Below are positions 27,463 through 34,803 of a DNA stretch of 64,000 nt, piece by piece. The stretch comes from Bacillota bacterium (GTDB lineage Bacteria > Bacillota > Clostridia > Lachnospirales > CAG-274). The translations under genes and the position numbers were made by a program. The stretch lies in contig JAFYGI010000006.1 in assembly GCA_017543265.1 (NCBI GenBank), positions 1 through 64,000 on the forward strand, written 5' to 3'. The notes beneath the pieces were generated by a model. The model did no database searches and was not told where the DNA came from. It saw only the letters and a list, made by a program, of their open reading frames with translations. Within the stretch, counting starts at the first letter, position 1. The number at the start of each line of letters is the position of its first letter.

Positions 27463-27578
27463 AGCAGCGAATACTTTATATTATCCGAGGAAGAATTCAG
27501 GGAGTATTCTTTTAAAGCACTTAACAACAAAATGATAACGCAAAAGCGTTATAACAAAATTCGGGAAAGGGAAAAATG
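27463..27578 (+). pseudogene. Short coding fragment upstream of GH16 gene
   Basis: A frame without start reads EYFILSEEEFREYSFKALN and on to MITQKRYNKIREREK, stopping at the TGA that overlaps the ATGA of the next gene. It looks like the tail of an unrecognised small protein. The rest of the gap 27367-27575 holds nothing else I can identify. Confidence 0.35.
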
Positions 27579-28631
27579 AAAGCAATCAGAAAAACACTTT
27601 TATTGATTATTACAGTTTTTATGTCATTTGTGTCCGTTACTTATGCAGGTGACAGTGATATATTTTATGATGATTTTTCGGGACTGAATTTAGACTCCGA
27701 CAAATGGCTGACGGCTGAAAAAAATTGGGGCGGTACGGTTATTGAAGATGGAGAAAGTGTCGATTACAACGGCGGCGTTATAGCGGAAAATGTACATTTA
27801 CAAAACGGAAAATTGATTTTTACCGGCTGCGGAAATTTATATGAGGGTAAAAAAAGAGGAATAAATCGCAACGGAACATATCGTGACAACGGCAAGAGAT
27901 GCGGCGGTGCAATAGCTACGAAAGATTATTTTGCCTCGGGAAGCTACGAGATACGGGCAAAAATAGCACCAACGCTTGGCTGCTGCTCGGCTATGTGGAC
28001 ATTTGAATATGAGGAGGACTATTCGGGCGATGAATTAAAGGTCACAAATCACGAAATAGATATTGAGTTTCCCGGGCGTACTCCGGACAATGATTACAGC
28101 CTGTCTCACGCTCTGTGTACAACTTGGACAACAGAGGGCGATTATAAAACAAGTTCCGTATATTGCGGTGACCAAACCGACGGGGAATTTCATACCTACA
28201 GATTTGATTGGCACACGGGAGATGCAAACGAAACACCAAGGGTCGAATATTATTTTGACAATACACTTGCGTATACATCATACGATCATATCCCGACAAA
28301 TGCAGGCAGACTGTGGCTTGGTTTGTGGTTTCCGAGATACTGGGCAGGCATACCCGATTTTGATAAAACATATTTTGAAGTAGATTATGTAAAAATAAAG
28401 CCTTTTCACGAAAAAGGTGACAAAGATCAAAATGAATCATATCCCGATGCCGGTTGGAGAAAAAACAATATTGTCAGAGGGGATGTAAACGGCGACAGCA
28501 CCATTGATTTAAGAGATGTTATAGAAATCGAAAAGAGAACGGTAACGGGATATGTCCCAAACGCAGATGTTAATAATGACGAAAACACGGATAGCAAGGA
28601 TGCGATTTTGATTTTAAAAAGTCTGTTTTGA
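27576..28631 (+). CDS. GH16 family glycoside hydrolase with dockerin
   Basis: 351 residues; GGGAAAGGGA before the ATG. Signal peptide (SVTYA). The beta-jelly-roll GH16 domain fills about 28-285, with the catalytic motif Glu160-Ile-Asp162-Ile-Glu164 (nucleophile and acid/base) and WTFEYEEDY before it; the family cleaves beta-1,3/1,4-glucans, xyloglucan or related polymers. The last 55 residues form a dockerin with two calcium loops (GDVNGDSTIDLRDV; ADVNNDENTDSKDA), so the enzyme should dock on a cohesin-bearing scaffold. Convergent with the lipoprotein gene at a strong terminator. Confidence 0.93.
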   Translation: MKAIRKTLLLIITVFMSFVSVTYAGDSDIFYDDFSGLNLDSDKWLTAEKNWGGTVIEDGESVDYNGGVIAENVHLQNGKLIFTGCGNLYEGKKRGINRNGTYRDNGKRCGGAIATKDYFASGSYEIRAKIAPTLGCCSAMWTFEYEEDYSGDELKVTNHEIDIEFPGRTPDNDYSLSHALCTTWTTEGDYKTSSVYCGDQTDGEFHTYRFDWHTGDANETPRVEYYFDNTLAYTSYDHIPTNAGRLWLGLWFPRYWAGIPDFDKTYFEVDYVKIKPFHEKGDKDQNESYPDAGWRKNNIVRGDVNGDSTIDLRDVIEIEKRTVTGYVPNADVNNDENTDSKDAILILKSLF

Positions 28632-31873: not shown

Positions 31874-32515
31874 TTAATAATATTCGGGATTAAATGCAAC
31901 GGTCAAGACACCGTTTTCTTCTACCGTATAACCTAAAATAAGCTGACTTTGCACATTGTTTGGCGGAGTTCCGTAAATGTAAGCTTTTTTCGCCAATATA
32001 AGCCCCGATGTAGGCACCATTGTTGAATCCGAACTTATTTCGGTAAGTCCCGCTGCCCTTAACGCATTAAAATACTTATCTCTGGCTGCTTGCGAAACAT
32101 TATAGTAAGTGTAATAATTGACTCTTGACGGGTCTTTCTGTCCCGATATTCCCGTTACCGCTGTAAAATCGGGTATGTGCCTGCTTGTGGGGTATGTTGC
32201 ATAACTGCCGTTTGAAGACACTTTAGCTGTGCTTTGGGCAGCCTGCGTTGATACTTTGGGTGCATTGGCTTCCGTACAGGTCTGTAAATAACCCTTGCCG
32301 TTGCGGTTTAAGTAGAAAGTGTTTTTCTCACCCCAATAATTTATATCATATCCGTATATAGCAGCAATATCTTCTTGGGATAACAATACGCATGTACTGT
32401 CGACAGTACCGTCTGATTTTCTATCAGCCCCAAAAAATATAGGTTGATATTTAAGCTGAAGATTATGACCATTTAATCTAAGTTTATTGGAATTGAACCA
32501 AACAGTAAAGTATAA
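31874..32515 (-). pseudogene. Stalk-domain-like secreted protein, 5'-truncated
   Basis: The frame is open from 32515 and reads WFNSNKLRLNGHNLQLKYQP, then SQEDIAAIYGYDINYWGEKN, resembling a stalk/copper-amine-oxidase-N type module, and then a Ser/Thr-rich linker and a domain ending TVEENGVLTVAFNPEYY. No ATG, ribosome site or signal peptide is present before the first module, though homologous modules are always secreted. A TTG at 32386 could start a shorter protein but would cut the module. Most likely a 5'-deleted gene. Gap 32516-32636 shows nothing. Confidence 0.5.
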
Positions 32516-32636
32516 TTATTAAGAGGTTCACTTGATATATGCACTCCGTACAATTTATATACATATTATAGCAAAACTTTGTGAAAATTGCAATATAAAT
32601 CTTTTGAATTTAATGTAGAAAATGATCTCTCAAAAA

Positions 32637-33260
32637 TCATAGTTTTTTAGAGGTTTTGTATATAATGCCATATTCTGCCGACGGTCGGTAAAAGGTAGCG
32701 TCACTACATCCTATAAGGCTTTTAGCTTGCTTCTGCGATAGTTCTCTTTTATGATATTTTTTTAGAATATCCGTATGATCCGATGCTTTATATCTTTTAG
32801 GTCTGCCGAATTTAACGCCTTTTGCCTTTGCAACCGCTATACCTTCTGCTTGCCGTTGCTTTATAAGTTCTCTTTCGTTCTGGGCAACAAATGACGGTAA
32901 TTCCAATACAATGTCGCTCACAAGCGTACCGATCAAATCGCGCTTAAGGGAAGTGTCAAGCAAGGGCATATCCAATACCACAATATCCGCACCGATATCT
33001 TTGGTTATATACCGCCATTGTTCCTTTATCTCATCATAATTCCTGCCCAATCTGTCAATGCTTTTAACAACAAGAATATTAGCCTTGTTTAGCTTTTTTA
33101 ACATACGCTTATAATTCTTTCGCTCAAAGTCACGACCGCTCTGCTTATCAACAAATATGCACGATTTCGGCACACCGTACTCCACCAACGCTATTATCTG
33201 CCTGTCTTCCTTTTGCATCTGTGTAGACACCCTCGCATATCCAATGTGTTTTCTATTCAT
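32637..33260 (-). CDS. Serine recombinase (resolvase/invertase family)
   Basis: 207 residues; AAAAGGAGC upstream of the ATG. Catalytic Ser12 lies in IGYARVST, and conserved arginines in SIDRLGRNYDEI. The C-terminal part has the usual linker helix and a small HTH (SQKQAKSLIGCSDATFYRPS). The size fits invertases and transposon resolvases rather than large phage integrases. No transposase is adjacent. Upstream lie two copies of a 12-base palindrome and two inverted repeats that may be its sites. Confidence 0.93.
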   Translation of the reverse strand: MNRKHIGYARVSTQMQKEDRQIIALVEYGVPKSCIFVDKQSGRDFERKNYKRMLKKLNKANILVVKSIDRLGRNYDEIKEQWRYITKDIGADIVVLDMPLLDTSLKRDLIGTLVSDIVLELPSFVAQNERELIKQRQAEGIAVAKAKGVKFGRPKRYKASDHTDILKKYHKRELSQKQAKSLIGCSDATFYRPSAEYGIIYKTSKKL

Positions 33261-33279
33261 CGTTTTTGCTCCTTTTCTA

Positions 33280-33370
33280 CCGAAATTTCGGCTTATTTTG
33301 TTGCTATCTCCATTTTATAATAGAGAAACACATCAAAATCCATAAATCTCTTTTCACCCCGAAATATCGG
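33280..33370. promoter_or_regulatory. Paired palindromes, candidate recombinase binding sites
   Basis: CCGAAATTTCGG (33280-33291) and CCGAAATATCGG (33359-33370) are 79 bases apart start to start, and flanking bases are also similar (TTTTG on the right of both). They lie just upstream of the recombinase start. Spacing and symmetry fit resolvase sub-sites or an autoregulatory operator. Confidence 0.45.
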
Positions 33371-33479
33371 AATAGTTTTGAACAAAAAATAAGCCTACAA
33401 GACAAGACATAATTCCTTATCTCATAGACTTATAAAATAATTGTATTCTTTTAAGAATAGTGATATACTAAAACTACAT

Positions 33480-33642
33480 CAATGGATATTCAAGACACAC
33501 ATCATATATTTACCACCCGACATATCTTGTCATAATCTTTCGCCTTGAAATATCCATTTTGTGTCAATCTCGTGTCAAACACGACACATCAACTCTTGAA
33601 CTTACGAATATAAGCTGCTTTCAAGAGTCATTATCTACAAAT
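33480..33642. repeat. Inverted repeats between recombinase and TtcA-like gene
   Basis: AATGGATATTCAAG (33481-33494) is mirrored by CTTGAAATATCCATT (33545-33559), and ACTCTTGAA is mirrored by TTCAAGAGT (33592-33630 region) across 19 bases. GTGTCAAACACGACAC lies between. The whole gap 33261-33672 has no coding sign and could be a recombination site region. Confidence 0.45.
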
Positions 33643-33672
33643 TAAAATTTAATTAAAATTTTTTCGGTATGA

Positions 33673-34803
33673 TTATTTTTGGAAGTCATCCAGAAAGCTG
33701 TGCTTTTCATTGCCTTTGTGCCAGCCGATAACCGTATTAAGGTTTATATTGTGTACGCTCTGGAAGATATTTTCTTCTATCAGGGGGCTTTCTTGGCGAA
33801 ATTTTTTAATAAGCTCCTTCATATCGTCACGCTTTGAGCCGCGGCCTCCTCCGCAGGTCGCGCAGTTTTCGGTAAAGCGGCAGGCACATTGTATAAAGTG
33901 CAGCTTGTTATAGTCCCGCCATGCTTTTATTGCATCTTCCTTTACCATATAAAGCGGCCGTATAAGCTCCATATTTTCAAAATTTTGGCTTTTAAGGCGC
34001 GGCAGCATAGTTTCTACCTTGCCGCTGTAAAGCATACCCATAAGCACTGTTTCTATCATATCGTCAAAATGGTGTCTGAGTGCTATTTTATTGCAGCCGA
34101 GAGCCTTTGCCTGCGAATAAAGATACCCTCTTCTCATCCTTGCGCAAAGATAGCAGGGGTTTTTATCTATGACAGCTACCGTGTCGAATATCTCACTTTT
34201 AAACACCGTAAGGGGAATGCCGAGTATTTTGGCGTTATTTTGTATTATCTGCCAATTATCCTTATTATAGCCGGGGTCCATACATAAAAAAACTATCTCG
34301 AACGGAAATTTTCCGTGACGCTGTATCTCCTGCATAAGCTTTGCCAGCAGCATGGAATCCTTTCCGCCCGATATACATACGGCTATTTTGTCATTGGGTG
34401 CAATAAGGTCATATACCTGTATTGCTTTTGTAAACCTGCACCATATATTTTTTCGGAATTTTTTTATGATACTGCGTTCTATTTCGGCGGTCTTGTTTTT
34501 TACTTCGTCATTTTTTATCATATTTTCAAGGCAAAGGCGCAGATAAGCGCGCCAGCCGCCCTCTACATTATAGGCATCATAACCCATATTTTCCAGCTGC
34601 TCCGTAACCGAAACACTGTTTTCGCCCGTGTAGCATAAAACATATACGGGCTTGTCCTTTGGCAGAGCCGAAAGGGTATCGGGGGATGTATTGACTGCGT
34701 TTTTATATGTCCCGCGTGCGTGATCCTCGGGCTTTCTTATATCAATTACGGTTATTTTATTTATATCAAGCCTCTCAAGTTCTTCTATTGTAATACTTTT
34801 CAT
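33673..34803 (-). CDS. Rhodanese-TtcA-like ATP-PPase fusion protein
   Basis: 376 residues; AGGAG before the ATG. An N-terminal rhodanese domain (1-95) has the active Cys57 in VLCYTGENS. After a linker comes a PP-loop ATP pyrophosphatase domain with SGGKDS at 145-150, a CYLCARMRRG pair of cysteines and a C-terminal ENCATCGGGRG motif, as in TtcA-type tRNA thiolation enzymes with a cysteine-bound Fe-S cluster. The fusion would pass sulfur from the rhodanese Cys to tRNA or another acceptor. It stands head to head with the sulfate assimilation operon. Confidence 0.9.
   Translation of the reverse strand: MKSITIEELERLDINKITVIDIRKPEDHARGTYKNAVNTSPDTLSALPKDKPVYVLCYTGENSVSVTEQLENMGYDAYNVEGGWRAYLRLCLENMIKNDEVKNKTAEIERSIIKKFRKNIWCRFTKAIQVYDLIAPNDKIAVCISGGKDSMLLAKLMQEIQRHGKFPFEIVFLCMDPGYNKDNWQIIQNNAKILGIPLTVFKSEIFDTVAVIDKNPCYLCARMRRGYLYSQAKALGCNKIALRHHFDDMIETVLMGMLYSGKVETMLPRLKSQNFENMELIRPLYMVKEDAIKAWRDYNKLHFIQCACRFTENCATCGGGRGSKRDDMKELIKKFRQESPLIEENIFQSVHNINLNTVIGWHKGNEKHSFLDDFQK

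Follow-up and report, generated by a model that had tools for sequence, protein, structure and literature searches.

The window analysed here is a 64,000-nt stretch of DNA (C47:1-64000) from the chromosome of a gut bacterium, in a 2.49-Mb assembly of 63 contigs. On its minus strand lies an intact reading frame (32637..33260) coding for a small serine recombinase of 207 aa, a predicted local DNA invertase, which possesses the resolvase N-terminal catalytic domain (Pfam PF00239, E-value 1.5e-26). An earlier sequence-only reading of this DNA had called a serine recombinase here and had seen no transposase, and both statements hold, the latter among the genes next to the recombinase. The nearest solved structure by sequence is that of Sin (2r0q, E-value 2.5e-25), with which the YARVS, DRQ, SIDRLGRN and KRQAEGI blocks of the protein align, and its YARVS, ERK and SIDRLGRN blocks align with both Sin and gamma-delta resolvase. 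The Arg and Ser residues in these blocks, which we take to be the catalytic ones, together with the PF00239 domain place the protein among the small serine recombinases and thus outside the tyrosine recombinase class. It scores 42.1 bits against the Mpi equivalog model NF009949, far below the cut-off of 272, and its C-terminus is altered in comparison with its paralogues. The window genome has six other recombinase matches, three of them strong; four of five other genomes of the genus have between 4 and 22 each and the fifth has none. Annotation labels genes of this kind simply "recombinase family protein", as in plasmid entries. Elsewhere in the window, a GH16-type glycosyl hydrolase with a dockerin domain is encoded at 27576-28631.

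Upstream of the recombinase gene are two palindromes, CCGAAATTTCGG at 33280-33291 and CCGAAATATCGG at 33359-33370, which lie 79 bp apart start to start as had been reported, the second of these being only imperfect. As 14-mers they span 33279..33292 (start-proximal, in the leader, 6/7 pairs) and 33358..33371 (distal, 5/7 pairs). Two copies of CCG-W6-CGG within a 140-nt region were not reached in any of 300 shuffles. Between them on the minus strand is a conserved -10-like block, TATTATAAAATGG (33310..33322; consensus among alignable paralogues TATTgTaAAATgG), belonging to the recombinase's own promoter, which has the same orientation throughout the alignable paralogues. The 12-mer alone is unspecific, occurring at 12 places in the genome, of which three are at recombinase genes and nine are away from them. 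When the motif is extended to include the ribosome-binding site, all nine matches, from six genomes, are found immediately 5′ of a recombinase start, with none for the reversed-pattern control. The start-proximal palindrome is conserved: 12 of the 26 genus paralogues have, at -32/-33 relative to the start codon, a 14-mer of the type CCCGAAATATCGGG, which none of 72 wider relatives has there. By eye, about 11 of 16 paralogues in the alignment show a degenerate version of the distal palindrome, which is replaced or absent in the rest.

The sequence-only reading had suggested that this arrangement could be a promoter-inversion switch. An invertible segment between them was considered and rejected, since the flanks make the two copies direct and not inverted (D1, 31 nt, 71%) and the enclosed promoter is of constant orientation; the switch is instead to be sought 3′ of the recombinase. 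The palindromes are most likely a pair of operators flanking the recombinase's own promoter rather than crossover sites, and would hold the enzyme at a low level, possibly through autorepression. It is also possible, if short of an even chance in our estimation, that some unrelated regulator binds them, or that they form a hairpin in the leader RNA close to the ribosome-binding site, in either case tuning recombinase expression only. In favour of this, the start-proximal palindrome keeps a fixed distance from both the start codon (-32/-33) and the ribosome-binding site, and its sequence differs from that of the crossover sites described below, but an RNA hairpin leaves the second, degenerate copy upstream of the promoter unexplained. 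Either form of this explanation is compatible with an invertase cassette at the locus.

Upstream modules and recombinase coding sequences are mosaic among some paralogues (L039, L042, L043, L047). L039 and L042, for example, share 98% identity over the first 400 coding nt, as against 64% over the 70 nt that precede the palindrome. Crossover precisely at the start-proximal palindrome was rejected as the cause of such promoter/gene mosaics, as the break points vary and general homologous recombination fits equally.

Further upstream, a terminator-like hairpin of 19 pairs followed by a T run (33389..33433, minus strand) forms the 5′ edge of the recombinase module, and similar hairpins are present in several paralogues. 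Beyond it and outside the switch is an intergenic repeat of about 200 nt (33437..33651, minus strand) that is dispersed in the genus, with 11 further matches in four genomes (G001-G004), which are 76-93% identical and include one of just 29 nt, and none found in G005. The more distant inverted partners of AATGGATATTCAAG and ACTCTTGAA, which had been proposed as part of the recombinase's arrangement, do exist, but they are contained in this unrelated repeat. Ten of its copies yield a consensus fold of 32 pairs, three of which are changed in both partners. Rfam gave no match to the window copy at E≤5; a structured RNA and a small mobile element are both conceivable identities for the repeat. Three copies (in the window, L313 and L309) adjoin a recombinase module or a remnant of one, and no recombinase was seen within the stretches fetched around the others.

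A TtcA-like/rhodanese gene (33673..34803, minus strand) is a conserved flank; its counterparts in G001 (85% identity) and G004 (84%) have no recombinase beside them. Nucleotide synteny with these two relatives stops at 33646, coinciding with the edge of the dispersed repeat. Past this break the relatives carry another gene, resembling that of a solute-binding protein. Pieces made up of the hairpin and the distal palindrome, with no recombinase gene adjoining, were also noted in L074 (17703-17808), where the piece precedes a large secreted-protein gene, and in L309 (from 2259 downward). G001 and G004 were also compared for a candidate 9-kb inversion at the palindrome. The solo hairpin-plus-distal-site piece in G001 shows 86% identity, while the gene shows 98%, which speaks against a recent simple inversion.

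The features resembling a promoter switch lie on the other side of the recombinase gene. A predicted left crossover site, a 26-mer with 10/13 pairs (32627..32652), covers the recombinase stop codon; 41 of 2000 shuffles reached this degree of pairing, and 21 of its 26 positions are identical in the left site of the paralogue L003. It is followed by the promoter of the predicted invertible element (32565..32593, minus strand; TTGCAA-17-TATAAT with TG before the -10), which is directed away from the recombinase and toward a secreted-protein gene. The predicted right site (32500..32525), its centre 127 bp from that of the left site, is degenerate or hybrid, its inner arm matching that of the left site in inverted orientation at 9/12 positions and its outer arm at 5/12. 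As an inverted repeat the window pair does not rise above shuffles (score 5, shuffle maximum 9). The window has the promoter and the predicted left site of a putative inverton, the right site being degenerate.

The outer arm of the right site is coding sequence of the downstream gene, the putative target (31874..32512, minus strand; frame open over 31877-32512), which is a 5′-truncated secreted-protein remnant. This frame is 51% identical to a homologue in the same genome (G000:C44:4715-5233), whose protein has approximately 110 extra N-terminal residues including a signal peptide; neither protein has a match in Pfam. The frame begins at the residues VYF, and the homologue's DNA reads GTATAT at that point. 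From this one case, the most economical hypothesis is that the inner arm of the element became linked to a GTATAY within the gene, with loss of the gene's 5′ portion. With the target gene cut short at the right site in this way, the window copy is probably a decayed, broken or locked switch.

Comparison with the paralogues of the genus gives the element its context. Their 3′ sites share a GTATAC-like core, and the exchange ends at a GTATA(C) core. Of 26 genus rows, 24 were scored against one reference with the promoter pointing to the next gene (ON, L046) and one with it pointing back (OFF, L032), L031 and L041 being too short. Four rows were ON (L046 itself, the window, L002, and L034, whose scores lie close to background), seven were OFF including L032, and 13 were left without an assigned direction, among them L003 and L030, for which the raw scores favour OFF. 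The window element aligns directly with the ON elements of L002 (0/600 shuffles) and L046 (1/600) and in inverted orientation with L030, L032 and L047 (0/600 each), taken as OFF. Further inverted matches were obtained with L031 and L050 (1/600 each) and L033 (4/600); those with L003 and L038 were ambiguous, and nothing was obtained with L042 and L049. The strongest sign of inversion is given by L046 and L047, sister rows in the recombinase tree, whose elements align once one of them is inverted, with identity reaching the GTATA core and then stopping, this being a comparison of paralogues at different loci. Both orientations were accordingly found between paralogues and not within one locus. 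No clear flip was seen between near-identical recombinases (the pairs L114/L115, L110/L122 and L117/L125 and 18 viral pairs, three of the latter consisting of one contig retrieved two times), in a set of genomes that includes no conspecific two. Several pairs were flagged as inverted at low identity, for example L140 against L114/L115 (0.59 inverted, 0.49 direct), and were not counted.

The 3′ arrangement extends beyond the genus. Eighty related loci were fetched from named genomes and 72 were used, leaving out L090-L095, whose contigs were already among the genus genomes, and L111 and L146, which had little upstream sequence; 65 of those used had at least 250 nt downstream. With a site pattern that was built from the positive loci themselves and allowed five mismatches, a site pair was found in the 300 nt past the stop codon in 35 of these 65 loci, in none of 1300 shuffles and in no upstream region, the remaining 30 loci having no pair by this self-derived pattern. 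The sites are near-palindromes of 20-26 bp on either side of a promoter directed into the following gene, with a start-to-start spacing of 104-223 bp, usually 104-179 bp and most commonly 136-137 bp. In L150, for example, the inverted near-palindromes CTATCAAAAGGTACACCTTTTGATAG and CTTTCAAAAGGTGTACCTTTTGAAAG lie 111 nt apart between the recombinase and the next gene. Site arms measure 26 bp in L150, L161 and L100 and 24 bp in L134 and L147. The 2-bp cores of the 35 pairs are inverted (reverse complements) in 31 cases, palindromic in four and direct in none, an orientation which is a requirement of inversion and not of deletion; the family therefore does place two sites in inverted orientation on one molecule. 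Simple promoter scoring assigned 25 of the 35 elements a direction toward the recombinase and three toward the next gene, with seven undecided. In the window and its relatives alike, the recombinase gene lies outside the invertible element.

The first downstream gene on the same strand had a signal-peptide-like N-terminus, by a crude hydropathy rule, in 18 of 56 cases as against 41 of 271 other neighbours. Many of the recombinase genes are solitary amid unrelated neighbours, and the largest cluster of shared neighbours comprises five loci. Among 75 distinct phage-derived loci, a site pair was present in two and no flips were seen, and the 3′ layout is for this low count considered a feature of chromosomal copies. 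Two other candidates for a common arrangement were rejected. Large inverted repeats around the recombinases gave no consistent pair in 8-kb windows, and SLOG-like, relaxase and MobC neighbours, found beside several genus copies, yielded HMMs that matched none of the 72 wide loci. The neighbour protein of some genus copies that we take to be of the SLOG/DUF1273 type had no family in Pfam.

Together these features suggest, with a good deal of confidence on our part, that the locus is a serine invertase-inverton cassette, an invertase gene followed at once by an invertible promoter, in a form that is probably impaired in the window. Since relatives adjoin a short promoter present in both directions, the enzyme most likely switches its neighbouring gene on and off, all functional readings of the cassette resting on comparative sequence. 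Dimers of the recombinase would bind both 3′ sites, come together as a tetramer and cut at the 2-bp core, and recombination would then flip the promoter between the sites. With the promoter pointing away from the recombinase the next gene would be ON; with it pointing back, the gene would be OFF and transcription would run antisense to the recombinase. The stand-alone invertase with a promoter switch toward a flanking gene that the sequence-only reading had offered is therefore supported by the relatives, although the elements that it had proposed for the switch were the wrong ones.

That reading had also entertained a resolvase left by a lost transposon. In this explanation the upstream palindromes would be a res-like site of a Sin-type resolvase that acts on mobile-element dimers or cointegrates, the window copy being a leftover. 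The plasmid resolvase Sin is indeed the closest solved relative of the recombinase, the two upstream sites are direct by their flanks and overlap the recombinase promoter, and some paralogues adjoin relaxase and MobC genes. However, the direct upstream pair is limited to this genus clade, whereas the inverted 3′ sites span the wider family; the symmetric part of the palindromes is 14 bp only, and their spacing is 79 bp, a whole Sin res site measuring 86 bp. A resolvase remnant is not favoured because the paired 3′ sites are inverted (31) and never direct (0), and the explanation is judged quite improbable, if still conceivable for the window copy by itself. More weight can be given to the window locus being a dead remnant, with the recombinase beside a truncated gene by chance and the 3′ promoter ordinary and fixed, an explanation that we hold possible while inclining against it. 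It accounts for the weak right site, the truncated target gene and the altered C-terminus of the recombinase, but it sits less well with an open recombinase frame that keeps its catalytic blocks and with a promoter element homologous to elements in both orientations.

An extension of the cassette explanation is that operator pair, invertase and invertible promoter form a self-contained unit that has multiplied to around 20 recombinase paralogues in some genomes of this one gut genus and can capture new targets, hopping between genes. The recombinase would do so by joining the inner arm to a GTATAY that happens to lie within an adjacent gene, a course of events hinted at by the window's hybrid right site at the VYF codons. 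This extension is considered unlikely.

It is well established that invertible promoters can have an invertase nearby. The Hin and Gin systems employ a small serine recombinase, inverted sites of approximately 26 bp with a 2-bp core, and promoter inversion, all of which resemble the cassette described here. In Hin-type systems, however, the recombinase lies inside the inverting segment and a Fis-bound enhancer takes part, whereas here the gene is placed outside and beside the invertible segment, which sets it apart from the Hin/Gin subgroup, and the window protein is nearer in sequence to Sin than to DNA-invertase entries. Mpi, the master invertase of Bacteroides, is likewise a serine recombinase tied to invertible promoters (NF009949), but it acts globally, while each copy here has its own adjacent element. 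With Sin and the beta resolvases there is the likeness of the closest solved structure and, in this genus, of two sites upstream of the gene. In the present family, by contrast, the crossover-like sites are inverted, flank a promoter and are found 3′ of the gene. Sin recombines two direct 86-bp res sites (PMC2428073). A counterpart in class Clostridia is inverton group 139 of a defined gut community, which likewise has short inverted repeats and a recombinase adjoining the inverton. The strongest Clostridia link in that community is to tyrosine recombinases, and the word "serine" occurs 0 times in the text (PMC11892184), in contrast to the serine-type enzyme here. A Sin-like serine recombinase with a 3′ inverton and a target gene in Clostridia was not found in the open literature searched, whose coverage of invertons is incomplete, making this weak evidence for novelty of the layout.

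Should the cassette explanation be correct, the 3′ end of such genes in Clostridia would name their own target switch, and assemblies alone could suffice to list phase-variable genes, among them those for secreted proteins and lipoproteins, with no need for deep reads. Each cassette would be a compact recombinase with a matched site pair and so directly testable. With 21 and 22 recombinase matches present in two genomes of the genus, phase variation there may be far more extensive than is known. Some of the cassettes appear to be decaying, given that an in-frame TAG stop lies within the recombinase gene of one paralogue (L035, G001:C56).
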